Assembly: GCA_013360745.1 (NCBI GenBank)
Contig: JABWBA010000009.1
Location: 1 to 64,000, forward strand
DNA length: 64,000 nucleotides
Source: Chthonomonadales bacterium
GTDB taxonomy: Bacteria; Armatimonadota; Chthonomonadetes; Chthonomonadales; CAJBBX01
Reading direction: 5' to 3'
The notes under the pieces are model-generated. The model did not search any database. It saw only the letters and a program-made list of their open reading frames with translations, and was not told the origin of the DNA. The translations under genes and the position numbers were made by a program. Below, in pieces: positions 10,223-30,947 of the stretch; within the stretch, counting starts at the first letter, position 1, and each line of letters starts with the position of its first letter.

Positions 10223-13200
10223 TTGAATAGAGTGAGACTAACACACCTCTGCTCCATACTACTGGTCACTCCGATGCTCGCCACCCTCGGCTTGAGCGCC
10301 GCCAACGCACAGGGCGGAGGAGTATGGAATGGGCCCCGAGCACCGCGGGGCAAACCCTTCATCGGCTATACGGCCCCCATGCCGCCGGAGGTGCCCGCGA
10401 AACCCGTCAAGCAGACCCGAGCCGACACAACGAAGGGTACGGTGGATCTCACGCCGAACACCCCTCTCGTGCATGACGGGGCGCCCTTCTGGACCCAGGA
10501 CGAAGCGTATCTCTATTTCCATTCCACTCGAACCGATATCGCGGGTACGACGGCCGGCACACTCCGGCATATCTACCGAATGCCCGCTGGAGGCGGTGCG
10601 CCGATCGCCATCACGGGGCCCCTCTCAGCTGGCCGGCTGGGCGAAGCCTCCAATCAGTCAGAGCCTGCAGCCAATCCGGGCGGCAACAGGCTGGTCTATA
10701 TCGAGACGGCCGCTTCAGGCGCCGTCGATCTCGTCGAACTCGACCTCGCCACCCGGACCACGAAGTCGCTCGTGCGCAATAACGCTGACGGATTTAACTT
10801 CGTTGCGCTGAATGGCCCCGAATATGGCGTCTGGTCCGAACTCAATATCGCGGTCCTTTTTGCGGGACGCACGTCGGCCGCCGGGCCGTACAAGCTCTTC
10901 GCCGTCGATACCCAGTCGGGCCGAATACGGCAGATCACCACGGGTCTTTCGGATGATCGAAATCCGACGGTGAGCCCGGCGGTCGGAACCTCCCAGCTCC
11001 AGGCCATCATCGCGTTCGACTCCAACCGGGCCGACGCGTCCGGCGCATCGGCGAAGGCGACCAGGGACATCTGGGTCGTTCCGGCGGATCGGCCGGGCGT
11101 CCCTGCCACGCGGGTTACGGACTTTTCGGCAAACGGAGCCAGTTCGTCCAACATGCAGCCGTCGTGGAGCACGAATAAGACCGATACCAGCGGTTTCGTC
11201 AGCGGTGCGCAGCTGATCGCGTTCGCGTCCACTCGGTACGATACAGCCAACGACGGCCTCGCCAACGGCGTCAACGGCAACGGCACCCACGATATCTACT
11301 GGCTCAAGGCCGCGATCGGGCGCGATCCCAACGGCGGCGATTACTATACGGTCACGACGCCGGAGAGCCAGACCAATGCGGCCTACAAGCTGCCCACCGG
11401 CGATCCGCGCCACATCTACGACGACCAGTATCCGGTCTGGCCCCAGTTCATCGGCACCTATCGCGTCGCCTTTCAGTCGAACCGCACCGGGTACGATCCG
11501 GCCAATCAGGTCTCGACCCCGGCGGCTCCCACCGCAGCGACCCCGACGGATCTCTTCTCCTCGACGTTGCTCGATCTGAATGCGCCGACACTGGTTCGGT
11601 TCAATGAGATGTCCGGAGAGGTAGTGAACGTGGAGCCGCGGCTGGCTCAGGCCGGCAGTCCGGTCCGAATCACCGCCAGGTTGACCGACCTTGAGACGGG
11701 TATCCGGGACGTCTGGGTTCAGATCAAGAATCCGAACAGCAAGTACCAGTCGTCGGACGGCGTGGAGCACAAGGTCTACGCTTTCGCTGGCATGAATCTC
11801 GACGGTAACAACATCGCTCTGAATGTCCCCGTGGAATATGAACAGGAGCGGATCTTTATTGGCTCCAACCCGTCGGATCCCCAGGTCAACACCTACGCAA
11901 CGCCAACATACATCGCCAGCCTCGACGACTTCTGGGCATTCACGGGCGGCAGCAATGCGCCGGATCCGTCGTGGCTCAGGCTTCAGTTCGAATCTCGGGA
12001 CCCGGCTACCGGTGTGGAGACCTTCAGCGCAACGTGGACCACTCCGGTGAGTCCCAGCGACTACGTCATCGACGTCATCGCGTACGACAACGCCGTCGAT
12101 CCCTTCCAGGGAGGAGCGGTCAACTGGAAGATCTACGACAATATCTGGGGCTTCTCCACACAGCCGTTCCAGGCAGGCCATGGTCTTCTGTTTGTCAGTG
12201 ACTATGCCGCCGGCCAGAAGTTCTTCAGTTCCCGATTCGGCGAGGCTTCGCTTGTCAATGTGCTCCATACATTCTGGGGTACGGAAAGCTGGATGACTGA
12301 TATCGACGTTCGCCTGCTGCCCCGCACCTATCGCAATGGCGATACGATCGGGACACTGATCAACGTCCTTAACGCTCTCGGAGTCAAGTCATATGGGAGC
12401 ATCAGTCCCGGTGCGGATCCAAGCCTCTGGGACGGGACGGTCGTAGACGGTTTCAACGTCCCGATGACACAGCAGTACGACATATGGCGCACCCTCTGCC
12501 GTGGTCCCGTGCCCGACTCGGTCCTGATGCAGTACCTGCCGCACCTGACGCAGCAGCCGCCGGATGTGATCAACGGTGAAAAGGATCCGCGGCCGGTCAC
12601 GGTAGCCCCCCGAAGCGTCATCTGGCATTCGCCTTATAACGGCAACCTGTTCGTCGGGCCCGGCACGTTGATGGACCTCGCTACACAAACCCAGCTGCAC
12701 GGTTTCCTCCAGGCAGGCGGGCGCCTGCTCGTCAACGGACAGGACTTCGCCTGGGCCGCAACGCTGGACGGCGGAAGCCCGAATGCATTCCTGGGCTCAG
12801 ATCTGAAGGCTCAGTACGTTCGGGACAGCGCGGGCGGGACGATCTTCCGCAGCGCCGCCGGCGCCTTCCGCATGCAGTTCGGCATTTCCAGCGCGTATTC
12901 ACTCGCTGCAGCCGGGGCCTTCAACCCGATCTCACACGATCCATGGGAGGGCATTCCGGGGGCCTACCTGAGCAGTCGACACCGATACCCCGGCCCACCG
13001 GAGCCACCCGGTGACAATCATCCGATATCGGCGTCGAACAACTATCTGGCCGCCGGTGACGACATAAACAATCCGCGCGTGTACGCCAGTCCTGGGAACG
13101 CGTATCCGGATGTTGTCAACTCCCTGTCCGGCGGGATCCCCGCGCTGAGTTACGGCGGCGGCGGCACGGCCGTCCACTATGTACACGACACGGCCACGGG

Positions 13201-15820
13201 CAGCAGGCTCGTCTACAGCCCGATGGGTCTGGAGGGGTACTTCCCGGACTTCTGGGCGCCAGCCAATACACAGAATATCCTCGCCCTGAAGAACCGGAGA
13301 AGCGAGCTCCTCCATAACTTCGCCTGCTGGTCCCGGACCGGCACCATAACCGGAACCGTGCTGGATGTGGAGGGCGCCGGAGCCCCATTGCCCAACGTAC
13401 TCGTACGGCTCTCCAGCAGGCAGTCTGGCGGTCAGCCGGTAACCGCGTATACCGCTTTGACGGCGGAGAACGGCTCTTTCTTCGTCAACGGCGTCGAACC
13501 CGGCACGTATGAGATCACTGCCTCAAAGCCCGGCTTTACGATCCAGAAGCGTACCGGTGTTGTAGTCCACGGCGGAGCGCGAGACGATATTAGCTTCCGG
13601 ATGACCAAGGCTGAGCCCGCAGTGATCAAGGGCAAGGTTACGCGTACCGACGGGACCACACCGGTGGTCGGCGCTACGCTTACGCTAACCGATGTCCTGC
13701 CGCCCAACGCAACCTTCACCGGCGTCAGCGATGCGAACGGCGAATACACGATCACACGGGTGCCGTCTCAGACGAAGTACACCTTGACGTGCTCGGCGAC
13801 CGGCTACGGCGAAAGCATTCCCGTGGAATATGCAGTCCCCAACCCGAATGATCCGGTTCAGGGACAGCGGGACGCCCTTGTCGTGCCGGCCAAGGTCTAT
13901 GTCGGCTTCGACTTCCAGCTGAAGGCGGAGCAGGGCGGGGCCTCTGGTCGCGTGGTAGCGAAGGGGACAGGGCAGCCGATTGCAGGCGCCGTGGTAACCG
14001 CAACTCTCGGTTCCCGCAATGTCACCGCGACCACCGACGCAAATGGCAACTACAGCTTCAGCAAGGTCAGTACGCCGCCGAATGGCCTCGATCCCGGCGC
14101 ATGGGGCCTGGTGGCCGCTGCACCCGGTTATCAGCCAAATGTGGCGATTAGCGTCCTCGTTGAGAGCAATAAGACGGCAGTGGTTCCGCTGATTGAGCTT
14201 GAGACCGTACCTCCGGGGTCGGTGTCCGGACTGGTGACGCGCACCAGCGACGGCGCTGCGCTCAGCGGTGTCATGATCGAGATGCGTGATTCAGCCGGCA
14301 ACCTGGTCGGCTCAACGACGACTGGCGCGAGCGCCACTTCGAACGGCTACACGTATAACTTCAAGATCGAGAATGCGCCGGCCGGCGTTACCTACACGGT
14401 GACCGCCAGGTCCCAGGGCTTCACACCGACTCCCGAATCGCGACAGGCTGCAGTGCAGACGGGCGTTGAGACGCGAAACGTCAACTTCGCCATGGCGCCG
14501 CTGCATACCTTCCCTGCAACGTTGTCGCTCGTATCAGCGCCGTATGATTACAGCGCCACCGACGCGGGCGATCTCCTGAGCATCCCGGCCGGGGACAGGC
14601 TCAACGGAACCTTCCTGCTGGCTACCTGGGCTCTACGCAAGTACCAGTACTACCCGCAGCCGAGCGTGAAGTCCTTCCAGCTTGGCCGGGGCTACTTCAT
14701 CTCCTACAAGTCGAATATCCCGCTGAGTCGGGAGGGAGGCACCGCGGATACCTCTCGGCCATTCGATATACCGCTCGACATCGGCTGGAACCTTATCGGA
14801 AATCCGTTCAACATCGACCTTGATTGGACCAAGGTGATGGTGGTCGATGGCGGCGCGGTCAAGACCTTCAGCGAGGCGATCTCCTCAGGCGCAATCAGTT
14901 CCGCCCTGTATACCTATACGAGCGGCAGCTACATTCTCGACTATAAGATCGCGGCATGGAGAGGCTACTGGGTACGCGCCTACAGGAACATCATCCTGCG
15001 ACTCGATCCGGTGAACGGCCGATACGGACGAGGATCCGCGATCCCCGCCGGCAGGTCGGTGCTCCAGGGGCGTCAGGGCTGGGCAGCCAACCTTCGTGTC
15101 ACTGCGGGCGGCTATACCGACCCGGATAACCGGTTTGGACTCGCCGCAGGGGCCACGGACGGCCCGGATGCATTCAAGGTCGAAAAGCCGCCTGTGTTCG
15201 GCGACCGCTATGTCTATCTGAGTTTCGATCATCCTGACTGGGGTGACCGAGCCGGCAACTATGGCGTCGATGTCCGGGCTGCTTCCGTTAGGCCCCAGTC
15301 CTGGCGGTTCACCGTGGCTACAGCGGTTAACGCGACCACCGCCGTCATTAGCTGGCCGGATCTCGCAACCGTGGATCGCAAGGTTCGACTTACCATCATC
15401 GATGAAGCAACCGGCGTAGAGAGAGACATGCGATCCAACAGCAGCTATTCGTGGCAGGTGCCGGCGGGCGCCACCGAGCGCAAGTTCCGTATCGAGTCGG
15501 CGCCTCTGGACAGGAACGCGCTGCGGATCACCGATTTACGGATCGCTCAGGTGGGCAGAAGCGCCGTCAGCAATATCACCTTCGTGACGACGGCGGCCGC
15601 TAACGTTACCATCCGGATTATGGACGGTGGCGGGCGGCTTATCCGAGCGTTGTCTCCAGAAACATCGCGGGCAGCGGGTACACAGCAAGTAAAATGGGAT
15701 CAGAAGGACGGACGGGGCATCACGATGCCGGCTGGCGCTTACCAGGTCGAGGTACGGGCTCGTACACTGGACGGTAAGGAAACGACCAGAGCGGTAGCGA
15801 TGCTGATTGTGACGAGATAG
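10223..15820 (+). CDS. giant secreted protein: TolB-like propeller, carboxypeptidase-regulatory repeats, shared C-terminal region
   Basis: The 1865-aa protein starts at a TTG with AGGAGG about 11 nt upstream and has a signal peptide ending SAANAQ (about 30). Residues 85-430 resemble PD40/TolB propeller blades (FHSTR, FDSNR, FASTR and FQSNR motifs). An Ig-like domain follows near 455-560, and at about 650-880 there is a domain with a GGRLLVNGQDF motif. Four carboxypeptidase-regulatory-like beta domains occupy about 1040-1415. The C-terminus has three modules that recur downstream: a GWNLIG/GYWVRA module (about 1427-1597), a module holding EKPP (about 1620-1762) and a FlgD-like Ig domain (about 1763-1865) ending in VTR. 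Export is clear but the role is unknown. A surface or extracellular matrix component is inference. Confidence 0.85.
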   Translation: MNRVRLTHLCSILLVTPMLATLGLSAANAQGGGVWNGPRAPRGKPFIGYTAPMPPEVPAKPVKQTRADTTKGTVDLTPNTPLVHDGAPFWTQDEAYLYFHSTRTDIAGTTAGTLRHIYRMPAGGGAPIAITGPLSAGRLGEASNQSEPAANPGGNRLVYIETAASGAVDLVELDLATRTTKSLVRNNADGFNFVALNGPEYGVWSELNIAVLFAGRTSAAGPYKLFAVDTQSGRIRQITTGLSDDRNPTVSPAVGTSQLQAIIAFDSNRADASGASAKATRDIWVVPADRPGVPATRVTDFSANGASSSNMQPSWSTNKTDTSGFVSGAQLIAFASTRYDTANDGLANGVNGNGTHDIYWLKAAIGRDPNGGDYYTVTTPESQTNAAYKLPTGDPRHIYDDQYPVWPQFIGTYRVAFQSNRTGYDPANQVSTPAAPTAATPTDLFSSTLLDLNAPTLVRFNEMSGEVVNVEPRLAQAGSPVRITARLTDLETGIRDVWVQIKNPNSKYQSSDGVEHKVYAFAGMNLDGNNIALNVPVEYEQERIFIGSNPSDPQVNTYATPTYIASLDDFWAFTGGSNAPDPSWLRLQFESRDPATGVETFSATWTTPVSPSDYVIDVIAYDNAVDPFQGGAVNWKIYDNIWGFSTQPFQAGHGLLFVSDYAAGQKFFSSRFGEASLVNVLHTFWGTESWMTDIDVRLLPRTYRNGDTIGTLINVLNALGVKSYGSISPGADPSLWDGTVVDGFNVPMTQQYDIWRTLCRGPVPDSVLMQYLPHLTQQPPDVINGEKDPRPVTVAPRSVIWHSPYNGNLFVGPGTLMDLATQTQLHGFLQAGGRLLVNGQDFAWAATLDGGSPNAFLGSDLKAQYVRDSAGGTIFRSAAGAFRMQFGISSAYSLAAAGAFNPISHDPWEGIPGAYLSSRHRYPGPPEPPGDNHPISASNNYLAAGDDINNPRVYASPGNAYPDVVNSLSGGIPALSYGGGGTAVHYVHDTATGSRLVYSPMGLEGYFPDFWAPANTQNILALKNRRSELLHNFACWSRTGTITGTVLDVEGAGAPLPNVLVRLSSRQSGGQPVTAYTALTAENGSFFVNGVEPGTYEITASKPGFTIQKRTGVVVHGGARDDISFRMTKAEPAVIKGKVTRTDGTTPVVGATLTLTDVLPPNATFTGVSDANGEYTITRVPSQTKYTLTCSATGYGESIPVEYAVPNPNDPVQGQRDALVVPAKVYVGFDFQLKAEQGGASGRVVAKGTGQPIAGAVVTATLGSRNVTATTDANGNYSFSKVSTPPNGLDPGAWGLVAAAPGYQPNVAISVLVESNKTAVVPLIELETVPPGSVSGLVTRTSDGAALSGVMIEMRDSAGNLVGSTTTGASATSNGYTYNFKIENAPAGVTYTVTARSQGFTPTPESRQAAVQTGVETRNVNFAMAPLHTFPATLSLVSAPYDYSATDAGDLLSIPAGDRLNGTFLLATWALRKYQYYPQPSVKSFQLGRGYFISYKSNIPLSREGGTADTSRPFDIPLDIGWNLIGNPFNIDLDWTKVMVVDGGAVKTFSEAISSGAISSALYTYTSGSYILDYKIAAWRGYWVRAYRNIILRLDPVNGRYGRGSAIPAGRSVLQGRQGWAANLRVTAGGYTDPDNRFGLAAGATDGPDAFKVEKPPVFGDRYVYLSFDHPDWGDRAGNYGVDVRAASVRPQSWRFTVATAVNATTAVISWPDLATVDRKVRLTIIDEATGVERDMRSNSSYSWQVPAGATERKFRIESAPLDRNALRITDLRIAQVGRSAVSNITFVTTAAANVTIRIMDGGGRLIRALSPETSRAAGTQQVKWDQKDGRGITMPAGAYQVEVRARTLDGKETTRAVAMLIVTR

Positions 15821-15825
15821 GGAAC

Positions 15826-15859
15826 GGGCTTTGCAGGGCCCGATGGAACTGCAGAGCCC
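15826..15859 (+). terminator. hairpin after the first block gene
   Basis: GGGCTTTGCAG (15826-15836) pairs with CTGCAGAGCCC (15849-15859), with one G-T pair and a 12-nt loop. There is no T-tract, so it may be a weak terminator or an mRNA-stabilising hairpin. Confidence 0.4.
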
Positions 15860-15957
15860 ATGCGCAATACTAGCGAGGGGCGATAGGGACATATTGTGTT
15901 CGACACGATAGGACCTGCTCGCTGGAGGATCGCCAATAATGTGTTGCAGCGTTTCGT

Positions 15958-15982
15958 GCGCTAAGGGTTAAGCCGTTAGCGC
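15958..15982 (+). promoter_or_regulatory. inverted repeat just before the CsgG-like gene
   Basis: GCGCTAA (15958-15964) and TTAGCGC (15976-15982) form a perfect inverted repeat with an 11-nt centre, ending 15 bp before the Shine-Dalgarno of the gene at 16014. It could be a regulator-binding site or a leader hairpin. No convincing promoter was seen in the 193-bp spacer. Confidence 0.4.
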
Positions 15983-16013
15983 AGGGGATGTGATCCAGGG
16001 AGGAACTCTCAGA

Positions 16014-17924: not shown

Positions 17925-17950
17925 GAGGAAGGCTCGGTACGGTATAGGGA

Positions 17951-17982
17951 GGACGGCGCGAACATCTTCAGCTGCGCCGTCC
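17951..17982 (+). terminator. perfect 9-bp hairpin between block genes
   Basis: GGACGGCGC (17951-17959) pairs perfectly with GCGCCGTCC (17974-17982) around a 14-nt loop. There is no T-tract. It is one of several strong spacer hairpins in this block and may tune relative expression or protect mRNA ends. Confidence 0.45.
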
Positions 17983-18017
17983 ACCTTCGTCGGTATGCGT
18001 GAGAGGAGCTAGGAAGC

Positions 18018-21017
18018 ATGAGGATGTGGCTTCGACTGTTGACGGGCCTTGCGTTGGCCGGAGCGATGGTGTGCTTCGGTATCGGTACGCTTGCGCAGGC
18101 AGGCCAGAGGCCGACGTTCGTTTCGGGCGACGTCGTCGTATGGGCGAAAAGCGGAGTTTCGGCGGATACAGTCCGCGAGGCCGCCAATGGGGCTAACTGT
18201 GACCTGGTCCGAATGACGCTCATGCCGGACGTTTATCTGCTTCGGGTAAAGATGATCGGTACGCCGACCTCTCAGGATACGCTGAATGCCGTCGACGCAC
18301 TGGCCCGGCACGACGCCTTCCGCTGGGTCGGTCCGAACACGATCAAGTACCCGCTCGACACGACTCCCGATGATCCTAGGTACAGGGAGCAATGGCATCT
18401 ACCTCTCATGAACCTGCCGCAAGCCTGGGATATTCATAGGGGATCTCAGGATGTGGTTGTGGCGGTCATTGATACGGGTGTCGATACGACGCATCCCGAT
18501 TTACGAGACAGGCTGCTCCCCGGCTACAACAGCAGCGGTACGGGCTCGACGAACGACCCCACGGACACGAACGGTCACGGAACCCATGTCATCGGCATCA
18601 TCGGGGCAACGACCAACAACGGCCTGGGCGTGGCAGGGGTAACCTATGAGGGTGTTAAGGTTCTCCCGATCAAGGCCGGAGACGCGGGATTCACTCTGAC
18701 CGCGATCGTTGATGGTTTGACCTTCGCTGAGCGGCAGGGCGCCAATATCGTGAACCTGAGTCTCGGATCTCCAGCGCCCAGCGATACCCCACCGGCGCAG
18801 CTTCCGCCGGATGAAGCCAAAATCATGCAGATGGCCCGCAACGGCGTACTCTTCTCCATTGCGGCAGGAAACAGCTTCACTGACGGTAATCCTCCGTTTG
18901 CGCCCGCCTATCTTGCCCAGCTCGATGATCATATTATCTGCGTGGCGGCCTGCGATTCTAAGAAGAAACAGGCTCCCTACTCCGAGGCTCGTCCCTATAC
19001 AACAATCAGCGCACCCGGAGGGAATACGGGCGCAGGACAATCGGAAGGGGTGCTGAGCACCTACCTTACATCCGCAGGCGGCTACGCGTTCGAACAGGGC
19101 ACGTCGATGGCGGCTCCGAACGCCGCAGGCGTGATGGCGCTGGTGCTCAGCGCCGGGGCTGAGCCTGCTGAGATGAAGTCCGTTCTTACGACTACGGCGG
19201 ACCACTCCATGTTGACCACCGTACCGGATAATGCGTTCGGATACGGAGTGATCGACGCCTATGCCGCGCTCCTAAAGGCCGGCATCAGTGTGACGGTCCT
19301 GGAACCTGAAGGAACGGGCGGAAAGGCTTCCGCTGGCGGGATCGTACGAAATCCCGCACCGGTTGAGACCCTCGCCCCGGTCATCCGCGTCGCGGTCTCT
19401 CAGATCACCCCGGATAACCTCACGCTAACCCTGAACGGCCAGATTGTGACGGGATGGACGCTTGAGAACATCTCCCGTACGGTCAAAGACAACGCAGGGA
19501 ACGATGTGCCTGTTGTTTACGAAGCGGTTATCCGAGATAACGTGGTGCCAGCAGGACAGAACATCATTGATGTCTCAGGCGTCAAGCCCGGACCTCCTGA
19601 TCGGGTCGTTACGGATACGCGCAAGTTCATGGTCATCCCGCGGCAAATACCAGCTGGCCGATCCTTGATCTCGATCCCATACCGCGAGGACGGCGCCACA
19701 CCGGAGAGCTATTTCGGCACCACCTTCCGCCTAGCGCGCTGGCTCCCCCTCGAAGCTCGATATGCTGTCTACTCGCCGATGCTGGGCACGGATCCGGGAG
19801 CGTCGTTTACCCCGCCGGATACGGTCCCGCATCTCGACGGCTCGGCGGTGTCGGGCGTGCCTGTGGGCCTCGCTTTCTGGGCCGACCTGGAATCCCTTAA
19901 GCCCGTCCTGACCAAAGGCCAACCCCTTCCAACTCGGTCGTATGTGATCCCGTTGCGGGGCCGGGGTGGTCTCGGGGTTACGGTAAGCTGGAATATGATC
20001 GGTTGTCCGTTCCCGTACGACGTGCCCTTCAATGCGCTGCTCGTCGATACGCCCGAAGGCAGGATCACCATCGCCGCTGCCGTCAGCCGGGGCTATGTGC
20101 TGCCCAACCTCTATTCATATGATGGATCCACGGGATACACCTTCCGGACGCTGCCGGACGGCGCACTGCGCGCATGGGAAGGGCACTGGATGGGCGTTAC
20201 GAGCAGCGAGGATATCGCCCTTGTGGTGCCGCCGGTCAGGATAACACGCTCCAGGTCGCAGGGCGTAACCGCTCCGCGCGATGGCTGGAGGCTGCAGCTT
20301 CAGGCCTCTGGCTCCGGCCTTCAAGATACATTCAACTTTATCGGTGTTCAGGCCGGCGCCTCCAACGGTCAGGATCTGCTCGATGTGCCCAAACCACCGA
20401 TGATCTCTCCCTTTGTGAGTGTGGGTGTTGAAGCGGACTCGCAGGGGCGCTCCGTCCTTCTGGCCCAGGATATCCGCAGCTCAACCGGAGCCCAGACGTG
20501 GAAGGTCGCCCTGACGTCGGATACCCCGAACTCTGAGGTTACGCTCCGTTGGAACTCGGTGGGCTCCTGGCCTGCACGAACCCGCCTCCTCCTTACCGAT
20601 GCGGCGACGGGCCAAACGATTGATATGAGGACCCGATCCTCGATTACCTTCCAGTCCGGCAGCCAACCGGCGCCGCGGTCCCTGACGGTCTCGGCGAAGC
20701 CGATTAGCGCAACCGCCCTCCGCATCAGCAATGTCGCCGTCCGGACCAGCGGAACGCGCGGGGTTGGATCCGTGCAGGTAAGCTTTACGCTCAGCTCCAC
20801 CGCAGCGTATGAAGTGCGGGTTCTTGGGGTCGACGGTCGACCTGTGGGAGTGGTCTCATCCAGGGCTGCCGCAACCGGCGATGTTCAACTTGTTTGGATT
20901 GGTAAGGATAACGCTGGCAGAAACGTGCCAGCTGGAACGTATCTCGTGCAGATCCGGGCCATCGACGACGATGGAGATGTTGTTAGGGTAATCCAGCCGT
21001 TTTCGCTGGTGCGCTGA
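18018..21017 (+). CDS. secreted subtilisin-like (S8) serine protease with the shared C-terminal region
   Basis: The 999-aa protein has a signal peptide (1-29), a prodomain-like segment (30-115) and an S8 catalytic domain (about 120-420). The triad is Asp152 in VIDTGVD, His187 in NGHGTH and Ser363 in GTSMAAP. The oxyanion Asn lies in AAGNS. Residues about 545-735 are the GYW-type module, about 755-890 the KPP module, and about 892-999 a FlgD-like Ig domain ending SLVR. This is the same C-terminal architecture as in the genes at 10223, 21094 and 23817. It is probably active outside the cytoplasm. Maturation of the co-encoded exported proteins is an attractive role but is inference. Confidence 0.93.
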   Translation: MRMWLRLLTGLALAGAMVCFGIGTLAQAGQRPTFVSGDVVVWAKSGVSADTVREAANGANCDLVRMTLMPDVYLLRVKMIGTPTSQDTLNAVDALARHDAFRWVGPNTIKYPLDTTPDDPRYREQWHLPLMNLPQAWDIHRGSQDVVVAVIDTGVDTTHPDLRDRLLPGYNSSGTGSTNDPTDTNGHGTHVIGIIGATTNNGLGVAGVTYEGVKVLPIKAGDAGFTLTAIVDGLTFAERQGANIVNLSLGSPAPSDTPPAQLPPDEAKIMQMARNGVLFSIAAGNSFTDGNPPFAPAYLAQLDDHIICVAACDSKKKQAPYSEARPYTTISAPGGNTGAGQSEGVLSTYLTSAGGYAFEQGTSMAAPNAAGVMALVLSAGAEPAEMKSVLTTTADHSMLTTVPDNAFGYGVIDAYAALLKAGISVTVLEPEGTGGKASAGGIVRNPAPVETLAPVIRVAVSQITPDNLTLTLNGQIVTGWTLENISRTVKDNAGNDVPVVYEAVIRDNVVPAGQNIIDVSGVKPGPPDRVVTDTRKFMVIPRQIPAGRSLISIPYREDGATPESYFGTTFRLARWLPLEARYAVYSPMLGTDPGASFTPPDTVPHLDGSAVSGVPVGLAFWADLESLKPVLTKGQPLPTRSYVIPLRGRGGLGVTVSWNMIGCPFPYDVPFNALLVDTPEGRITIAAAVSRGYVLPNLYSYDGSTGYTFRTLPDGALRAWEGHWMGVTSSEDIALVVPPVRITRSRSQGVTAPRDGWRLQLQASGSGLQDTFNFIGVQAGASNGQDLLDVPKPPMISPFVSVGVEADSQGRSVLLAQDIRSSTGAQTWKVALTSDTPNSEVTLRWNSVGSWPARTRLLLTDAATGQTIDMRTRSSITFQSGSQPAPRSLTVSAKPISATALRISNVAVRTSGTRGVGSVQVSFTLSSTAAYEVRVLGVDGRPVGVVSSRAAATGDVQLVWIGKDNAGRNVPAGTYLVQIRAIDDDGDVVRVIQPFSLVR

Positions 21018-21093: not shown

Positions 21094-23766
21094 ATGATCT
21101 GGCTCGGACCGCGAAGCAGACGGCACGGCTTGCTCGTCGCCTGCGTGGCCGCGATTGGCATGGTCTGTGTTAGTGCGCAGACCGCCTGGTCGCAAACGCT
21201 CGTGTCCATACAGAACGGCAAGCTGATCGCTACGGTGGGCGAGGCCGAAGATCTGAACAGCGTGAACGTCGCTGGCCGCTTCGGGATCACCGAAGCCAGC
21301 GCCACGGGCGGGGTTCTCCTTCAGCTCCCACGCTCATCCAGCCTCAACCAGCTCGGCAGCTACGTGACTGTGCGGATCGACGGCGGAACCCCATTTCTTC
21401 AGGATGGCACCGTCGCCGAGGGCGTCCCGGGATGGGATATCGCCTGGGGCTACGAGGATACACCGGACACGGATATCACCGGCGAGTGGGTACAGGCGCC
21501 GACCGCGATCAGCCCGACCAGGCTCGTCGCTAAGTGGCGGACCATTCCCGATGCCGCGGCTGATCCCCGCATACCGGAGATCCATGTCAACCTTGATATG
21601 CGCATCGTGTATGACATGGTGCTCTATAAGTTCACGGTGATCAATCTGGATACTTCGGCGCATACGGTAGGCCTTAGGTTCGCTCAGGATTTCGCCGTTC
21701 CGAACACCACGGATGGACCGATCCTCACGCCTAAAACGCCGCAGATTACGCACGAAACGTCCCTGATCAGCAGCTTGATCCCGGATTACTGGCGGTCCGC
21801 AGGTACGGAGGGAACTAGCACCGTTGGGGCCCATGTCCGAAACTCAGGAATGTCCAACTACCCGACGAATCCAGATCGACTTATCTTCGGCCTTACGGAT
21901 CGCGTCACCGGTCCGCTGTGGGATTTCACCCCCAATAGCGGCACCAGCCTCCTCGGACCGACCGCGGATGCGTCTGCCGCGCTCTATTTCAACCCGGTCC
22001 AGCTTGCTACGGGGCAATCCCGGGTGTTCTCGACGATCCTGGGCGCCGCCGGTTCCAGCTACGAGTTTGGTGATCGCATCGCCGCGGGCCTCGAAGGCCC
22101 GGTATCACTCAAGTACGATCCCAGTAAGCCCGAGGCACAGCGACTCCAGCCGAGTCCGTTCAGGGTGACGGCGTTTCTTCATAATATGAACACCATCAAC
22201 TTGAGTAACGTCCGGGCTGTCCTTTCCCTTCCTTCGGGATTGTCGCTGGACGCGGGTGAAAACCCTGTTAAGATGGCCACGTCCGTCGGTGTCGACGGTG
22301 AAGCGACCTTCACGTGGAATGTGGTACCGACAGGCGCGGCCTCGGGTCGACTGACCTATTCCGTAGCGCTCAGCGCCGATCCCGGTGGCCAGGGTGTGAG
22401 CGTGGCGCGCGATATCGATATTCCCTCCCTGCCTTCGCAACCGTTCGGCGCCGGATGGCAGATGGTATCGTTCCCCTATGTGCTTGATGACCGTACACCT
22501 GCTGGGGCGATCAACCTCGATCCTGCGATGTACGATCTGGTCCGATGGAACCCGACTGCAGCCCGGTACCAGGCCGTGCAGTATCTCAATCCTGGGGAAG
22601 GGTACTGGCTCCGGCTTCCAGAAGGTCGGACGGTAACGCTTGCGAACGCACAGCCGGTCAACGTTCCCGGCGGTGATTTCGAGCTGAATTTAACCACAGG
22701 CTGGACTCAGATCGCGAACCCCTTCCTCCTGCCGATTCGATGGGGTGATCTCAGAGTCCTGAACCTCGATCGGAATGACCGGGACTATCTCGTCCCGCTC
22801 AGTGTCGCCGAGGCATCTAGCTTTGAGCGGCGATGGATCTCCCCGACGATCTTCCGCTATGACGTTCAGGCGGGCATGTATAAGTTCGATCAGGACTTCG
22901 GTACGGAGATGAAGCCCTTCGTCGGCTACTGGGTCCACGCTCTGAAACCGAACCTCGTTCTCGTGATCTCGAAGCCCTCGGGACGCGCGGCTTCGGTGGC
23001 GGCCACGCGAGGCGCTGATGTCAAAGGCGGTTGGAAACTTCGCCTCAACGTGACGGACGGAACGACACAGGATGGATGGAACTTTATCGGCGTTGGTCGC
23101 GATGCAAAAGATGGCGTCGATCAACACGATGTGATGAAGCCTCCGACCGTTGCCGATAGCGTCAATCTCGCGATCCTCGGCCTGGGGCAGGGCATCGCGC
23201 CTGAGCGTCTTGCCCAGGATATACGCTCGGCGAGCCCGACTGCCAAGAGGTGGCAGATCTCTGTCAGCAGCGCGACGCCGAACGCCGATCTGACGCTAAC
23301 GTGGCCGGACATCAGTACCCTGCCGCGAACCTATGAGCTGTACATCAGCGATGGCTCCAACCCCGCTCGCCAGGCCATGCGCACGACCTCGTCGCTGCGG
23401 ATCAACACGGGCCCTGCAGGCACAAGGATGATTACCCTCGACGCTGAACCCCGGGCGGCCGCAGGCGCCTTCCGGATCACTAGCTGGAACGTCCTTCCGA
23501 CGAAGAGCCATGGCAGCGCCACGATTAGCGTTTCAGCATCGCAGACCGCTACCCTATCCATTCGTGTCCTTGGGCCTGGCGGCGCCATGGTCCGCCGGTT
23601 AACCGGACGGGCTGGCGGCCTGGGACAGACGAGTGAAGTCACCTGGGACCAGCGCGATTCCCGGGGTATAGCCGTGCCGGCGGGAGCCTATACGGTTGAG
23701 ATCAAGGCGACGTCTACGGACGGCCAGAGCGCCCGTGTGGTCGCTCCGCTCGTGGTGACGCGCTGA
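21094..23766 (+). CDS. secreted protein of unknown function with the shared C-terminal region
   Basis: The 890-aa protein was started at ATG 21094, which has GGAGG 8 nt upstream and yields a signal peptide ending TAWSQ. An ATG at 21019 would add a non-signal leader. Residues 30-440 are all-beta with no family I can name; the early part reads like a sugar-binding or Ig-type sandwich. Residues 449-630 are the GYW module (GYWLRL and GYWVHA halves), about 644-785 the KPP module (MKPP) and about 789-890 the FlgD-like Ig domain ending VVTR. It lies 76 bp after the protease gene and probably shares its transcript. Confidence 0.8.
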   Translation: MIWLGPRSRRHGLLVACVAAIGMVCVSAQTAWSQTLVSIQNGKLIATVGEAEDLNSVNVAGRFGITEASATGGVLLQLPRSSSLNQLGSYVTVRIDGGTPFLQDGTVAEGVPGWDIAWGYEDTPDTDITGEWVQAPTAISPTRLVAKWRTIPDAAADPRIPEIHVNLDMRIVYDMVLYKFTVINLDTSAHTVGLRFAQDFAVPNTTDGPILTPKTPQITHETSLISSLIPDYWRSAGTEGTSTVGAHVRNSGMSNYPTNPDRLIFGLTDRVTGPLWDFTPNSGTSLLGPTADASAALYFNPVQLATGQSRVFSTILGAAGSSYEFGDRIAAGLEGPVSLKYDPSKPEAQRLQPSPFRVTAFLHNMNTINLSNVRAVLSLPSGLSLDAGENPVKMATSVGVDGEATFTWNVVPTGAASGRLTYSVALSADPGGQGVSVARDIDIPSLPSQPFGAGWQMVSFPYVLDDRTPAGAINLDPAMYDLVRWNPTAARYQAVQYLNPGEGYWLRLPEGRTVTLANAQPVNVPGGDFELNLTTGWTQIANPFLLPIRWGDLRVLNLDRNDRDYLVPLSVAEASSFERRWISPTIFRYDVQAGMYKFDQDFGTEMKPFVGYWVHALKPNLVLVISKPSGRAASVAATRGADVKGGWKLRLNVTDGTTQDGWNFIGVGRDAKDGVDQHDVMKPPTVADSVNLAILGLGQGIAPERLAQDIRSASPTAKRWQISVSSATPNADLTLTWPDISTLPRTYELYISDGSNPARQAMRTTSSLRINTGPAGTRMITLDAEPRAAAGAFRITSWNVLPTKSHGSATISVSASQTATLSIRVLGPGGAMVRRLTGRAGGLGQTSEVTWDQRDSRGIAVPAGAYTVEIKATSTDGQSARVVAPLVVTR

Positions 23767-23816
23767 TGACGGCCTCAACTCTATCAGCGGCCTCGCAAGA
23801 GTTCAGGGGGAAGCAA

Positions 23817-26800
23817 ATGAGATCCTTTCGCGGAGTGATGAGGTGGCTCATCGCTGCCACTCTGCTCGGCGTATACCTCGCCCGCCCGGCAGTGGCGGCG
23901 CCGACATTATCGGCGGAGTGTTTCGCCGTCCGTCAGAACGATACCACCGAGGCGGGTACGGAGCAGACATGGTTCGCCTTTCGGGCCGTTGTGGCCCCGA
24001 GCGGTGATACTGCGGCCCTGGTGGGCAGGCCAACTCTCCATCTTGGTGTTCAGTTCGTAGATGAAGCGAACGGCATCGTCGTCTCCCGTCGTCAGATCAC
24101 GATGGAGCGGGATCGCACCCGTTCAAGCTTCGGGCGCGATACCTTCTGGATTGCGTTCGTACGCGGTATGGACATCCCCAGCACGGCCTCGGGTTCGCAG
24201 GTGCCCCCTACCGGCGTAGGGCGCCCGGTGAGTTCGACATGGGTAGTCGAGGCCTGGGAGACCGACGGTACCAACACGACGATGTCGGCCAGCGACCAGC
24301 TCAACCTTCAGGTATATCCGTCGATACGAGATCTTGATTCGCCCTACTGGGCCGTCCATATGGTTCCCGTTGACGCCAATGGCAATCCCGATAACGCTCC
24401 GGGCCCTGGCCAGAATGGCAACGGTCTTCGAGTCGATCCAGAAGACGCGACGCGGCCGAATGACGGAGGCGGATCTCACCGCTATACATGGAGGGTTAAT
24501 GTCCGCACCTATGGCGGATTGCCCCCTGCCCTATTCCAGCGCCAGAATACGTTCGATTACTCGATGTTCTGGTTCGCATCCCAGAGCCGGTACGATGCGC
24601 TCCGAAGCGGTGTCCTCCTTCACCTGGTGGATCCCACCGGAACCGTACGCGTATTCCCGATGACCAGCCCGGACGTGGATCCGGCAGCGACCTATCCAAC
24701 CGAAGGCTCGTTTCTCCACCCGGTCGCCAACCCGGCCCTGGCCAGCGGCACGGTCTATACCTACACCATGGAACCGACGGAGTTCTGGCCCGTAGGCAGC
24801 GCGATTTTCTTCGGCGGCGACCTCCAAAGCATGGTCCCGCAGTTCACCGTCCCGGACGGGATCCCCGTGATCCCGCTTGGCGGCGATATCGGCGAGAGCT
24901 TCGTCGGGCGCCCCTACGCCAACGTCTACGCCTCGTTCAACGAGCTGGATTCGACGATACTCTATGCGGCGTTCATGTCGCCGCCGCCGCCCATGCCGAT
25001 CTACAGCACTGGCGTAGGCGGCCGCGCAGGCCAGTGGGGTTACTATATTCGGTCCTCCATCGACTTCAGACCGGATCCTGCGGTAGGCAACGATACCAAC
25101 GTCGATAACTTCATCGCCAACTCGACAGGCACTCCGCCGAACCGTCAGTGGACCGAATACCGGGATAACTGGGGGCAGACCCCCATCCGATACCGCCGGC
25201 TTCAGGATAGCGACGATCCGGACCCGAGAAACGTCGACGCGGAAACGCCCTACGTTCACCCGTATGTCACTCCGATCCTCGTCGACGGACATTGGAGCGA
25301 CGATCTGCTCGAGAACCGCAACCTCCAAAAGCCGCCGAACTATCTGCTGGGTATTGAACCCTGGCCGCCATACGACGATCCGGCGATGAGCTTAGCGTCC
25401 AATGCGCGCCGGTCCAGGGTCACGAACAAGACCAGGGTACGGTTCCAGGTTCGGGTGGTTCATGTACCCAAAGGCGACGTCTCCGGCCCGCTTTCCGTCC
25501 GCGTCTGGATCGGCAACCGAAACGACGGCTCGATGCGCCCCTACATGATGCAGGTCGCTCCGAACCAGGGGGCGGTCAATGACGCCCAGGGCGTCCTTTA
25601 TTACTATGATGCCGTGCTCGGCCCCGGCAACGAAGGTCGTAACGCCATATACTTTGAGGCGGACGACGGCGTCAACCGAGCGATCTGGCCGCGCCGACCG
25701 GCGGATGATCCCCAGGGGATTGCCTTGCCGAATCGGAGCGATGCAGCGTTCTTTGGCTCGGTTACCCAGGTCGGCAAGAACTATATGATGGAACCGTGGG
25801 TTAACCATCGTCCCGAGCTCCTCAACGGAAGGGTTACCCCGACATCAGGCGTCGTTGGCACATCGTTTACCTACGAAGTCCTCTATCGTGACGCAGATAA
25901 CGATCCCCCGACCGATGCCTGGGTGATCCTCAATAACAAGCCGGAGCACTGGCGTTATCGGATGACCGAGGCGCCGGAGGATGCCGGCAACAGCTACGCG
26001 CAGGGCCGACGCTACAGGCTGGTCCTCAATCAGCTCCCAGGCGTGCCGCTGAACAAGTACAACTTCTACTTCCAGTTCCGTGATAACTGGGCGACCTCGA
26101 ATCGGCCGATCCGCCGGGAGTTCGGCGAGTGGACCACCTTCCCGCAGGGCGACGACAGCGGTAATCCGAGCAACGTCATCGAGGGGCCGACGATCATCGC
26201 CAACAGCGCCCCCGAACTGAGAGAGGTCAGCATCTCCGCCAGCGATACGGCGTTGAACTCGGCAACCAAGTACGACTTCTTCGTTCGGTATCGCGACGTC
26301 GATAACAATGCGCCTAACAGCGTGAAACTGTTCGTGGAACTCTACGATTCCGCGACGGGAGCACGGCTGACTACGGATCCTGGAACCTCGTTGGTCCCGG
26401 CGGAAAGCGGCACGAACTACGCCTCTGGCGTCCAGCACCATCTGCCCGCGCCGATCCGCCTCTCGCCGGCGCCCCTTGGTCAGGAGTATCGCTATCGCTT
26501 TACGACCAGCGACGGCGTCAACAACTCCAATCTAGTCTCTGTCGGCACCGGCTCCAGCTCGCTGACGCTCAACACCGCTCGAGTGCTGCGCCGCGTGGCC
26601 CCGAATGTGTACGACGATCCTTCGGGGACCCGAGCATGGGCTGCGGATACGACGTTGTTCGTTTGGAGGACGGATACCGGCGGCAACACCGTGCTTCTCG
26701 CACCCGGTGAGTTTAGCGTTGATGCGCCGAACGGCAGGCTTACGATCCCGGGAGCTTCGGATACCGATGTAATCCGAGCCTCCTACCGATACGAACAGAC

Positions 26801-29800
26801 CGTTGGACCGACAGTCAATGAAAATGTCGTACCGGTCCTGACTCTGCCCGATGCCTATGATAAGCCGCTGAACTACAAGACCATCTCTCAGACGGTGGGC
26901 GATACTTCGACCGCCTTCGCTTTCGCTATCCTGTACACCGATGCAGATAACCAGCCGCCGGTACTGGATGACGGCGTTACTGAGGGCGTCTATCTGGTCG
27001 TCGACAATACCAACAAGATCCCGCTGTCCCGCGATCCTAATACGCCCACTCCGGTGGACTACAGGACGCGAATACGGTACATCGGCTCCACAACCCTCCC
27101 GATCGGCCACCACGTCTACCACATCGAAGCAACGGACGGCGCTGGCGTATCCCGACGGCCGCTCGTTTCGGCGGACGTGGATGGTAATGGCGATCCGATT
27201 CCAGCGGATCTACCGGTCAGCGTCAACAGCGCCGGCACTCTCACGAACCTGCTCATCGAACCGTTCCCGAAGGGACGCAGTAATCAGCTCTACCAGTTCA
27301 CCGTCACCTACACCAGCCCTGATGACCGCGCTCCGGAAGATAGCGGCAGGGGCCCGATTGAACTCTGGGTTCGAGATACGACCGGCGGCGCCTACACCTA
27401 TGTCGTAATGTCCGCGATTGACCCGATTACGCCGGGCGCCTATGCTGCCGGCGTCCGATTCCGAGCCCAGCTCACCGCACCTGCGGCGCCGCTTCAACCG
27501 GGTACCCACACGGTGACGGTCGGCTTCCAGAATGATCGCTCCCAGAGCTACGTTCCGTTCACGGATCTGCTGGTCAACGATAAGCCGGTGCTGAGTGCGC
27601 CGACGGTGACTCCGAACCCCGCAACGGCGGCCCAGGACGTGGTCTTCACCGTCCGATACACCGACTCGATGCTGGGTGACGCTCCCACTCGGATGGAACT
27701 GCAGATCGATCGAAAGCCGGTGACGAGCCTGCCGGTCTCGACCCCGTCGGCCCCAACCGCTGATGACTATAAAGCGGGCGTAACCTACACATGGACCATT
27801 CCGGGTGTCGATATCGGCGTCGGCAATCACCTGTATCAGTTCCTCGCAGCGGACGATGTGGAAGATGCCGATCCTGTACCTCCAACGCCGGACTCGTTCA
27901 CGATCAACGGCGCTGGCGTGATGACGCTGTCGGACGGGAAGGTAACCCCGACGACGGGCAATCAGGCCAACACCTATGTCTATAGCGTCAAGTACACGCA
28001 CAGCGACAACATCGCGCCCTATCGGATCGAAGTGATCGTCGATCCCGAGACTGGCGCCGTCGCCCACACCCTGCATCCAACGGGAACGGCTCCGTTCAAC
28101 TACGCGGCCGGAGTGACCTTCGAGAGTGATCCGATCCAACTCCCGCCCGGCATGCACACATTCCGGTTCGAGGCGCAGGATCGGGTCCAGACGGTCCAGC
28201 ATCCTGTCGCGCCTGCAGTCCTGGACGGCCCGAAGGTCAACTTCCCGCCGGAGCTCAGCAACGTTCAAGTCACGCGGAACACCCTGCCCGAGATCCATAC
28301 CGTCGGCGCAGGCAACGCCCTGACGCCGCCACTGGTGGGAACGCTGAACGACAGCTACACGTTCAAGATCACCTATAAGGACGTCGATCAGAACAACCCG
28401 ACGGCTCCCGAAGCCGATCACTACGTGCGGCTCGTCATCGACGGGCAACCCCCGATCACCATGGCAGCGCAGGGGACCGATTATGCGAACGGCGTTGTCT
28501 ATTCCGCTACAGTCTCGAACCTGACACCCGGCGACAAGACGTTCCGGTTCGAGGCCTTCGATGGCCCGGGCGCGATGGGCGACACGGTGCATTATCCTGG
28601 ACCGGGTCTCTGGATTTCAGGACTGTCCATCAAGAACGTGCCCGAGGTCACCGTCCCGGGTCCGGCCGACCCCGCGACGAACGATCATTCTCTGACGCCG
28701 CTGGCCGGCATCCGATCGACCGTCTACCAGTATCGAGTTCGGTATCGGCACCTCGACAATACCGCGCCGACCTCGCTCGACCTCGTGATCGATCCCGGGC
28801 AGCCGGGTGAGAAGCGTGTGCCGCTCACCCCGCAATCGGCAGGCCCGTACGACTATACGACTGGCGTCCTGTATGGATATAACACGTCGGCCAATGAGCT
28901 AACGGTCGGCGCCCATACCTACAGATTCGAATATAACGATGGACTGACCGACGGCGTCGTCGGCAGCTTCAACGGCCCGACGGTGTCGAATGCGCTGCTC
29001 AGCCTGACGGCTCCCGTGAGCGGTACGCTTTCACCGCTATCGGGTCCGCCATCGGTCGACTTCACCTACCAGGCGCTCTACACGAACGCCGATAACAACC
29101 CGCCGAGCTATGTCCGCGTCGTTATCGACGGCACTGCCCACGATATGACGAAGGCGACGACGAGCACCGACTATCGAATCGGCGTTCTCTATGAGCTGAA
29201 GTACCGCTTCCCGAGGGATTCCCAGCAGAGGACCCATGGCTACCACTTCGAGGCCAGGGATACGGTCGAGCCCACGGTAGTTCGTTATCCGACTTCTGGC
29301 GAGACCTCCGGTCCGACCCTCAATACCGCGTTCTTCGTCATCACCGGCATCTCCCAGCCGCCCTCGACCGCGGGCTCGCCCATCGTCGTCGGCGGGACGG
29401 TTACCGTAGCCGGGCGACTGGATACAAACGCACCGATCGGAGCGCAATCCATTCCGGTTCAGCTCGTACGGCCGGATGGAAGCGGCGTCAATGAAAGTGC
29501 GACGACGGCTGCGGACGGTTCGCTGGCCTTCACCTCGTCGACGATCCTGGATCAAACCGGCGACTGGAAGGTTAAGCTCAGCTGGTCCGGTCAGCCCGGA
29601 GTGTATGACTCGACCTCCGCTGAGCAGACCTTCAAGGTGGTCGGCGCAGAGGTATCTCTGACGAAGGGCGTTCTCGATCTCATCGCTCTACCGGTCGTAC
29701 CCGTGACGCCCGATCCAAGCATCACCTTCAATCCGGTGCGCGCCAACGGCACGGCGGCGCCGATCTCGAGCCTCGACCTGGTAACGTGGGCTCCGACGAT

Positions 29801-30947
29801 GCCGCCGACTGGAAAGTACACGTCGCTCAACTACGACGCGAACTTCCCGGGTGCGATCGGCGGCCGCGGTTATTGGACCCTCCCGACGGAAACGGTGAAG
29901 CTCAATCCGAGGGGCAAGCTCTGGAACCAGTCTCAGGCCTACACCATAGGGGTAGCGGCAGGCTGGAACCTGATCGGCTCCGTCTTCACCCGCAACATCG
30001 ATCTGTCGACCGTGAAGGTCCGGTATCAGGGCAACATCATGAGCCTTGCCGCCGCGTCCGCGGTTCTCAAGCCCTACGCCTGGGGCTATGATAAGACGAC
30101 GGGAAGCTATACCCTTATCCAGGCTGGCGGCGTCCTTCAGCCGGGTCGCGGCTACTGGGTACGCGCTATCGAGCCGTGCGAGATCATTCTGGATCCCGCA
30201 GCAGTGCCAGCAGGACCGCTCGGTCGTGATGCCGACCTCACGTACAATGCGCTTCAAGTAACGGCGCGGGTCGGCAATCGGTTGGATCGGGATAACTTCC
30301 TGCCGATCGGATCCAATATCACTCGCGCAGTGGCCGAGAAACCGCCGTATCTAGGCGAACATGCGGTCATCGTTCCGCTGGCATCGTCCGAGGTCGCCGC
30401 GAGCGTCCCGACGAGGGCTGGTCAGCAGGTGCTGGGCTTCGAGGCTCAGACCAATGTCCCGAACGCCGATATCACCATCGGCTTCCCGAATCTGGCGACC
30501 CTTGGCCGCCGATACGAGGCAACATTGATCGACATCTCGACAAAGACAACGAGAGCGCTGGCGTCGTCATCGGGTTATGTATATAACTCGGGTCCGAACG
30601 CCGCTCCGCGCCGGTTCGCCGTTGTCATCCGCACCGTGACCGCTAACAGCCGGCTCGTGATTACGGATGTGCGCAGCGCCGGTCGCTCTGCCGGGACGAT
30701 GACCTTTAGCTACACCCTCTCCGGAACGGCCTCGGTGCGAGCCCAGATCGTTTCCGGCGCGGGAACGCTGGTTCGAGATCTCGTTCAAGGCCGATCCGCG
30801 GCCGAGGGTTCTAACTCGGTCGTCTGGGACGGTCGCGATCGCAAAGGCATCGCGGTACCCAGCGGCACCTATCTTCTCAAGCTCACCGCGACCGACGGGG
30901 AAGGCCGGGCGGCAACAGCCGTCTTGCCCGTAACCGTAGTCCGCTAG
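23817..30947 (+). CDS. giant exported repeat protein with nine Ig/cadherin-like modules and the shared C-terminal region
   Basis: The 2376-aa protein starts at ATG 23817 (AGGGGGAAG 8 nt upstream) with a signal peptide ending PAVAA. A further ATG at 23766 overlaps the previous stop codon by one base and may allow coupling. Residues about 30-660 are all-beta. Residues about 666-1840 hold nine modules of 110-140 aa, each with a YxDxDNxxP-type motif (YRDADNDPP, YTDADNQPP, YTNADNNPP and variants), which could bind calcium. An Ig-like domain (about 1841-1941) precedes the GYW module (1944-2131), the KPP module (2139-2274) and the FlgD-like domain (2275-2376) ending TVVR. It is probably a long surface fibre or adhesin, by inference from the repeat plan. 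Confidence 0.85.
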   Translation: MRSFRGVMRWLIAATLLGVYLARPAVAAPTLSAECFAVRQNDTTEAGTEQTWFAFRAVVAPSGDTAALVGRPTLHLGVQFVDEANGIVVSRRQITMERDRTRSSFGRDTFWIAFVRGMDIPSTASGSQVPPTGVGRPVSSTWVVEAWETDGTNTTMSASDQLNLQVYPSIRDLDSPYWAVHMVPVDANGNPDNAPGPGQNGNGLRVDPEDATRPNDGGGSHRYTWRVNVRTYGGLPPALFQRQNTFDYSMFWFASQSRYDALRSGVLLHLVDPTGTVRVFPMTSPDVDPAATYPTEGSFLHPVANPALASGTVYTYTMEPTEFWPVGSAIFFGGDLQSMVPQFTVPDGIPVIPLGGDIGESFVGRPYANVYASFNELDSTILYAAFMSPPPPMPIYSTGVGGRAGQWGYYIRSSIDFRPDPAVGNDTNVDNFIANSTGTPPNRQWTEYRDNWGQTPIRYRRLQDSDDPDPRNVDAETPYVHPYVTPILVDGHWSDDLLENRNLQKPPNYLLGIEPWPPYDDPAMSLASNARRSRVTNKTRVRFQVRVVHVPKGDVSGPLSVRVWIGNRNDGSMRPYMMQVAPNQGAVNDAQGVLYYYDAVLGPGNEGRNAIYFEADDGVNRAIWPRRPADDPQGIALPNRSDAAFFGSVTQVGKNYMMEPWVNHRPELLNGRVTPTSGVVGTSFTYEVLYRDADNDPPTDAWVILNNKPEHWRYRMTEAPEDAGNSYAQGRRYRLVLNQLPGVPLNKYNFYFQFRDNWATSNRPIRREFGEWTTFPQGDDSGNPSNVIEGPTIIANSAPELREVSISASDTALNSATKYDFFVRYRDVDNNAPNSVKLFVELYDSATGARLTTDPGTSLVPAESGTNYASGVQHHLPAPIRLSPAPLGQEYRYRFTTSDGVNNSNLVSVGTGSSSLTLNTARVLRRVAPNVYDDPSGTRAWAADTTLFVWRTDTGGNTVLLAPGEFSVDAPNGRLTIPGASDTDVIRASYRYEQTVGPTVNENVVPVLTLPDAYDKPLNYKTISQTVGDTSTAFAFAILYTDADNQPPVLDDGVTEGVYLVVDNTNKIPLSRDPNTPTPVDYRTRIRYIGSTTLPIGHHVYHIEATDGAGVSRRPLVSADVDGNGDPIPADLPVSVNSAGTLTNLLIEPFPKGRSNQLYQFTVTYTSPDDRAPEDSGRGPIELWVRDTTGGAYTYVVMSAIDPITPGAYAAGVRFRAQLTAPAAPLQPGTHTVTVGFQNDRSQSYVPFTDLLVNDKPVLSAPTVTPNPATAAQDVVFTVRYTDSMLGDAPTRMELQIDRKPVTSLPVSTPSAPTADDYKAGVTYTWTIPGVDIGVGNHLYQFLAADDVEDADPVPPTPDSFTINGAGVMTLSDGKVTPTTGNQANTYVYSVKYTHSDNIAPYRIEVIVDPETGAVAHTLHPTGTAPFNYAAGVTFESDPIQLPPGMHTFRFEAQDRVQTVQHPVAPAVLDGPKVNFPPELSNVQVTRNTLPEIHTVGAGNALTPPLVGTLNDSYTFKITYKDVDQNNPTAPEADHYVRLVIDGQPPITMAAQGTDYANGVVYSATVSNLTPGDKTFRFEAFDGPGAMGDTVHYPGPGLWISGLSIKNVPEVTVPGPADPATNDHSLTPLAGIRSTVYQYRVRYRHLDNTAPTSLDLVIDPGQPGEKRVPLTPQSAGPYDYTTGVLYGYNTSANELTVGAHTYRFEYNDGLTDGVVGSFNGPTVSNALLSLTAPVSGTLSPLSGPPSVDFTYQALYTNADNNPPSYVRVVIDGTAHDMTKATTSTDYRIGVLYELKYRFPRDSQQRTHGYHFEARDTVEPTVVRYPTSGETSGPTLNTAFFVITGISQPPSTAGSPIVVGGTVTVAGRLDTNAPIGAQSIPVQLVRPDGSGVNESATTAADGSLAFTSSTILDQTGDWKVKLSWSGQPGVYDSTSAEQTFKVVGAEVSLTKGVLDLIALPVVPVTPDPSITFNPVRANGTAAPISSLDLVTWAPTMPPTGKYTSLNYDANFPGAIGGRGYWTLPTETVKLNPRGKLWNQSQAYTIGVAAGWNLIGSVFTRNIDLSTVKVRYQGNIMSLAAASAVLKPYAWGYDKTTGSYTLIQAGGVLQPGRGYWVRAIEPCEIILDPAAVPAGPLGRDADLTYNALQVTARVGNRLDRDNFLPIGSNITRAVAEKPPYLGEHAVIVPLASSEVAASVPTRAGQQVLGFEAQTNVPNADITIGFPNLATLGRRYEATLIDISTKTTRALASSSGYVYNSGPNAAPRRFAVVIRTVTANSRLVITDVRSAGRSAGTMTFSYTLSGTASVRAQIVSGAGTLVRDLVQGRSAAEGSNSVVWDGRDRKGIAVPSGTYLLKLTATDGEGRAATAVLPVTVVR

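Follow-up and report, generated by a model that had tools for sequence, protein, structure and literature searches.

An arginine-ended C-terminal tail on exported proteins of Armatimonadota: a possible sorting tag in a phylum without recognisable SprA or PorV

Four exported proteins with a common C-terminal tail

The stretch of DNA analysed here, referred to as the window, comprises positions 1 to 64,000 of contig JABWBA010000009.1 of a Chthonomonadales bacterium (GCA_013360745.1; phylum Armatimonadota), the genome assembly of which has 3.3 Mb in 127 contigs and is 97% complete. It contains four genes for exported proteins, here called A to D, which differ in their N-terminal parts and share a C-terminal region of about 440 amino acids, in the following called the tail. 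Open reading frames (ORFs) of the window were called in all six frames and domains were assigned by Pfam and NCBIfam profile searches, which confirmed all four ORFs. A first-pass annotation made from the letters of the sequence had proposed four exported proteins with unlike N-termini and a common three-part tail, and the ORFs, the homology of the tails and the FlgD_ig matches at their ends all bear this out.

The last 431–458 amino acids of the four proteins are homologous, with pairwise BLASTP E values of 1e-24 to 1e-41 and identities of 26–30%, and full-length pairs gave significant alignments only via this common region. A four-way alignment of the tails has 40 invariant columns. Each tail starts with a duplicated GWNLIG/GYW module (about 173–197 amino acids), followed by a KPP module (about 133–144 amino acids) and a FlgD-type immunoglobulin-like (Ig) module of about 101 amino acids ending in arginine; the final residues VTR, LVR, VTR and VVR of A, B, C and D had been read correctly before. 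The Pfam family FlgD_ig (PF13860) matches the ends of A–D with 31.9–43.6 bits at a gathering score of 27, and it also matches all of 27 aligned relatives at E<=1. An AlphaFold2 model of the tail of C, calculated from an alignment of 27 tails, predicts an all-beta structure of three modules with a mean predicted local distance difference test (pLDDT) score of 88.5. Fold searches with the tail yielded enzyme and adhesin modules of a generic Ig/fn3 type as well as PorU (6za2); in a viral fold library the matches were mostly beta-rich phage proteins of a generic kind.

Concerning the N-terminal parts, the S8 domain of B and the carboxypeptidase-regulatory repeats of A which had been claimed are both found by Pfam, the latter as four CarboxypepD_reg stretches. 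The propeller of A and the nine Ig-like repeats of D are legible by eye, as repeated xFxSNRxD motifs and as nine copies of an [FY]xxxVxYxxxDNxxPxxxxLxID-like motif, respectively, but Pfam supports neither of them. In-frame ATG codons at 21094 and 23817 are the probable starts of C and D. Orthologues of A are present in other Armatimonadota families.

Table 1. Position of the tail genes, their tails and neighbouring genes in the window
Feature	Position	Strand	Description	Evidence
polA	4992-7784		conserved housekeeping gene bordering the block in other families too	
rpsA	7892-9385		conserved housekeeping gene bordering the block in other families too	
coaE	9430..10008	+	conserved housekeeping gene bordering the block in other families too	
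Protein A, 1865 aa	10223..15820	+	exported; propeller-like repeats, 4 CarboxypepD_reg stretches, tail	ORF, Pfam
Tail of A	14489..15817	+	GWNLIG/GYW 14489-15007, KPP 15074-15505, FlgD-type Ig 15512-15817; ends VTR	
csgG644, 644 aa	15990..17924	+	CsgG/LpoB-like N-terminal domain, transmembrane stretch, fn3-like part	Pfam, synteny
Protein B, 999 aa	18018..21017	+	S8 (subtilase) protease and tail; ends LVR	Pfam PF00082, E 8e-50
Tail of B	19641..21014	+	GWNLIG/GYW 19641-20231, KPP 20280-20702, FlgD-type Ig 20709-21014	
Protein C, 915 aa	21019..23766	+	all-beta N-terminal part and tail	ORF
Tail of C	22429..23763	+	GWNLIG/GYW 22429-22974, KPP 23026-23451, FlgD-type Ig 23461-23763	
Protein D, 2393 aa	23766..30947	+	nine Ig-like repeats (by eye) and tail; ends VVR	ORF
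Tail of D	29652..30944	+	GWNLIG/GYW 29652-30194, KPP 30237-30635, FlgD-type Ig 30642-30944	
csgG275	30975..31802	+	second CsgG/LptE-like alpha/beta protein; C-terminal transmembrane stretch, Gly/Pro-rich end	synteny
barrel691	31821..33896	+	Big_1 invasin-type Ig and weakly LptA/OstA-like stretch; predicted beta-barrel of the outer membrane with C-terminal Phe	

Occurrence, position and cargo of the tail

The source genome contains exactly five tails, four in the window and one elsewhere. The fifth tail protein (L011, G000:C81, 10667-14035, minus strand, 1122 aa) ends with VITR; its gene is followed by a gene for a CarboxypepD_reg-like lipoprotein, and like pairs were seen in genomes G253 (L082) and G183 (L086). 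Named relatives come from metagenome-assembled genomes (MAGs) of Armatimonadota, Chthonomonas among them. When 291 Armatimonadota genomes were searched and the best five candidates per genome scored, matches at E<=1e-5 were obtained in 274 of them, and in 186 of the 194 genomes of good quality; some families among the 274 were hit by the first module alone. Counts per genome start at 1-2; full scoring of individual genomes gave two matches at the lower end (G076, G099) and up to 44 (G275) and 63 (G246), the highest counts including split matches.

To determine the position of the tail in its carriers, tail loci were fetched from many families and their ORFs called, the sample consisting mostly of best matches and of mutually related sequences. 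In all 145 distinct ORFs in which the match reaches the FlgD end, it stops within 15 amino acids of the C-terminus of the protein, the strictly C-terminal position which the first-pass annotation had asked about, and 139 of them (96%) have a terminal arginine. This is a very large contrast to the background, where arginine is the last residue in 15.9% of 252 other ORFs of more than 250 amino acids, taken from the first set of loci. A crude test found a clearly hydrophobic N-terminal stretch in 46 of 55 complete carriers, and several of the rest look mis-started. The cargo is diverse, as had been noted for the window: in G275 and G246 the tail is preceded by S8, M6 and M23 peptidases, beta-helix/NosD domains, NHL and PD40 propellers, HYR repeats and a phosphodiesterase. 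Where the match stops in the first module, it does so within 34 amino acids of the end of the protein in 26 of 27 distinct proteins, and a terminal arginine is not the rule there. In family f32 (G222; L096, L152-L161) the GWNLIG module alone forms the end of many proteins, for the most part within four amino acids of the stop, which makes this end a possible second C-terminal element. In G183 (L071, 13871-16547) the orthologue of C is found in two ORFs of 621 and 274 amino acids, an apparent frameshift.

The rpsA-coaE block

The tail genes of the window belong to a block next to rpsA and coaE (Table 1). The order rpsA, coaE, (A), csgG644, B, C, (D), csgG275, barrel691 recurs in families f1, f2, f7, f16, f19, f37, f41, f42 and others, with losses, and family f15 retains a minimal block in which C is the tail protein adjoining csgG644 and the barrel. 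The second CsgG-like protein, csgG275, has a weak Pfam match to LptE (18.9 bits, under the cut-off). For barrel691 Pfam gives Big_1 with 35.9 bits and there is no NCBIfam match at E<=1; its AlphaFold2 model (pLDDT 56.6) was of too low quality for a structure search. In a test of 30 genomes spread over the phylum, 25 had barrel691. As to a co-occurrence of tails with the CsgG-like and barrel genes, the barrel is found in nearly all tail genomes tested (it is absent from G002), but nine tail-less genomes have it too. A strict dependence of the block on tails is ruled out, since tail-less genomes retain csgG644 and the barrel; because the pair persists there, it must have a function which is independent of the tail. 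Also ruled out is barrel691 as the sole LptD-like protein of the phylum, as most sampled genomes have other LptD_N matches.

On the minus strand beyond the block (33971-35896) a 641-aa ORF encodes a carbonic anhydrase domain flanked on both sides by zinc-ribbon domains, an unusual combination.

Relation to type IX secretion

Profile-profile comparison showed the FlgD part of the tail to be homologous (99.3%, E 7e-21) to C-terminal domains (CTDs) from Eisenbacteria, KSB1, Krumholzibacteriia, WOR-3, TA06, one Verrucomicrobia MAG and one Bacteroidetes MAG, most of which also end in arginine or lysine. The best sequence matches of the tail in the PDB are FlgD structures (E 2e-10), and the CTD of PorU was met by fold search and weakly by sequence. 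Direct membership in TIGR04183, the type A CTD model of the type IX secretion system (T9SS), is ruled out, as none of the window proteins matches it at E<=1 (curated cut-off 23 bits). Ten of the 27 aligned tails match it weakly, with a best E of 4.4e-6, and one relative (L043) scores 22.9 bits, just below the cut-off. The type B model PF13585 gave chance-level matches in two of the 27 relatives (best E 0.16), and TIGR04131 was not listed. The earlier statement that the modules differ from T9SS CTDs has to be modified for the last domain, which shows profile homology to the FlgD-type CTDs of phyla with SprA, and some relatives graze TIGR04183.

SprA scored above cut-off in none of the 291 Armatimonadota genomes, whereas the same search found it in nine out of ten genomes with FlgD tails from other phyla. 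The exception is the Verrucomicrobia MAG (L050, G291), which has FlgD-type C-terminal domains, two out of three ending with VR, and no SprA match; this may mean that another phylum is in the same situation, or that the genome is incomplete. PorV was above cut-off in none of 13 Armatimonadota genomes and in five of five controls, and C25/PorU-type peptidases were found in two of the 13, the source genome not among them, and again in all five controls. For SprA, PorV and C25/PorU the claimed absence of T9SS genes therefore extends beyond the window, the GldK/L/M/N family not having been searched. As the phylum lacks SprA and PorV, an ordinary T9SS is not involved, and the SprA, PorV and C25 searches speak against a hidden one.

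Weak matches to the SprA model occur in 195 of the 291 genomes. The best ones cover about 95 amino acids (model positions 593-690, about 4% of the model) in putative outer-membrane barrels of about 800-1000 amino acids (L067-L069), for which reason they were rejected as SprA. These SprA-like barrels bear the motif GPYYLxxxxIVPxSExVxVDGxxxxxGxDYxIDYxxGxIxF. In G191 (L076, 8040-10682) a gene of this kind adjoins a tail gene in the usual place of barrel691. At G246:C22:86613-87326 (L146), immediately downstream of the barrel gene, an ORF of 297 amino acids weakly matches the PorV family (32 bits, E 2e-7).

Proposed role of the tail and alternative explanations

We tentatively propose, with about as much doubt as belief, that the tail serves as a C-terminal tag for sorting or surface retention which resembles the CTDs of the T9SS and is read by a different machinery. 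Carriers would use an N-terminal Sec signal to cross the inner membrane. They would then be marked for delivery across the outer membrane, or retention at it, by the folded FlgD-type Ig domain at their end, the last strand of which closes with arginine, whether or not the two upstream modules are present. Because SprA and PorV are absent the translocon would have to be another protein; by position the only candidate is barrel691 of the block together with its CsgG-like partners, barrel691 being a putative partner of the tail. Substrates of the type B T9SS are genetically linked to a barrel shuttle (PMC12618676), to which the linkage of the tail genes to barrel691 may be a parallel. PorU carries its own uncleaved CTD (PMC11285876); by analogy the tailed S8 protease B might, speculatively, serve as processing enzyme, if cleavage takes place at all. 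The most specific version, an SprA-independent outer-membrane sorting in which the arginine-ended FlgD-type domain is read by the CsgG-like and invasin-Ig/LptA-like barrel proteins as translocon or anchor, with B as possible processor, appears unlikely to us.

Counted in favour of a tag are the strict C-terminal position, the terminal arginine, the unrelated cargo, the lineage-specific expansion and the distant homology to CTDs. Together with the lack of SprA and PorV, these points support in part the sorting signal of an undescribed export system suggested by the first-pass annotation; the persistence of block genes without tails speaks against it. In families f22 and f23 and genus g82 csgG644 adjoins the barrel without a tail protein, and the searched genomes of these groups gave zero FlgD_ig matches, so that co-occurrence does not single out this pair as the machine. 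Several further points weigh against a tag. Families f9, f31, f32, f34 and f35 have proteins, block-encoded or dispersed, which end in the GWNLIG or KPP module and lack the FlgD-arginine end. In G076, a genome of family f15, FlgD_ig matches only once, unlike what would be expected of a general tag. Ig-like modules are common at the termini of surface proteins. Finally, the case is built on anatomy and distribution as read from sequence, and export, recognition and processing are inferred.

The main and serious rival, somewhat less probable than a tag, is that the tail consists of ordinary accessory beta-sandwich modules for stability, oligomerisation or glycan/matrix binding which were spread by domain shuffling and have no role in sorting, the carriers leaving the cell otherwise, for example by type II secretion. 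The generic Ig/fn3 modules returned by the fold search fit this explanation, and the parts of the tail are separable, the FlgD domain standing alone in most fetched carriers of G275 and the GWNLIG module in G222. In addition, type II secretion genes have been reported in Fimbriimonas ginsengisoli (PMC4072686). Accessory modules are, however, rarely limited to the exact C-terminus or to a fixed last residue, as found here for the FlgD-ended ORFs.

Another explanation, which we consider improbable, sees in the tail a module for the assembly of a single fixed complex of the cell surface, encoded at the rpsA-coaE locus, in which A–D bind each other or barrel691 by their tails and the other copies are paralogues. 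It is in line with the synteny of csgG644, B, C, csgG275 and the barrel across many families, with the minimal block of f15 and with the fact that 38 of the 55 complete carriers from the loci sampled first are orthologues of C or B. Against it speak the carriers with unrelated domains which are dispersed by the dozens in G246, G275 and G007.

A true, very divergent T9SS, whose SprA, PorV and PorU the profiles would miss, is hardly credible. The weak SprA matches (at best the 95-aa stretch, in putative barrels of about 850-1000 amino acids), the PorV-like ORF adjoining the block in G246 and the two genomes with C25 peptidases speak for it; the SprA search, clearly positive in other phyla and below cut-off in all 291 genomes here, and the lack of PorV speak against it, a case which rests on three components.

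Significance

According to a review, CTD proteins of the T9SS are restricted to Bacteroidota and their distribution strictly tracks the T9SS core genes with few exceptions (PMC10202324), and our literature search found no paper on a T9SS or a CTD system in Armatimonadota. Judged by its sequence, the nearly phylum-wide occurrence of a T9SS-CTD-like tail in a phylum lacking SprA and PorV is real; it would be categorically new only if a separate machinery were proven. There are two alternatives, a second machine for the same kind of signal or another role for a signal-like domain, and both make the origin of CTD-based sorting testable. The tail also provides a handle on the exported proteins of a little-studied phylum.

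Comparison with known systems

Like intimin/invasin Ig and LptA/LptD-like proteins, barrel691 combines a Big_1 domain (invasin in the PDB, E 1.6e-16) with a short, weakly LptA/YhbN-like stretch (E 0.29), but it has no match to the barrel of LptD or of invasin. The terminal module of the tail passes the Pfam cut-off for the Ig-like domain (PF13860) of the flagellar hook assembly protein FlgD, from which it differs in capping large exported proteins and not being a hook cap protein. With the type B CTDs (TIGR04131/PF13585) the tail has in common a long C-terminal region and the linkage of carrier genes to an outer-membrane barrel gene (PMC12618676). It differs from them in matching PF13585 at chance level only, and barrel691, with its resemblance to an invasin-Ig and LptA-like barrel, differs from the PorP/SprF shuttle.

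The closest likeness is to the type A CTD (TIGR04183/PF18962). T9SS CTDs are Ig-like and a C-terminal motif is required for their function (PMC11285876); the tail, too, has an Ig-like domain with a conserved end at the extreme C-terminus of diverse exported proteins. Its predicted fold is likewise all-beta and Ig-like, although generic Ig folds match as well, and a distant sequence homology and PorU among the fold matches add to the likeness. The differences are the occurrence in a phylum without SprA or PorV, the missing TIGR04183 match of the window tails, the lack of a PNPF start, a feature of most CTDs from other phyla in the alignment, and the two extra modules which usually stand ahead of the FlgD domain.
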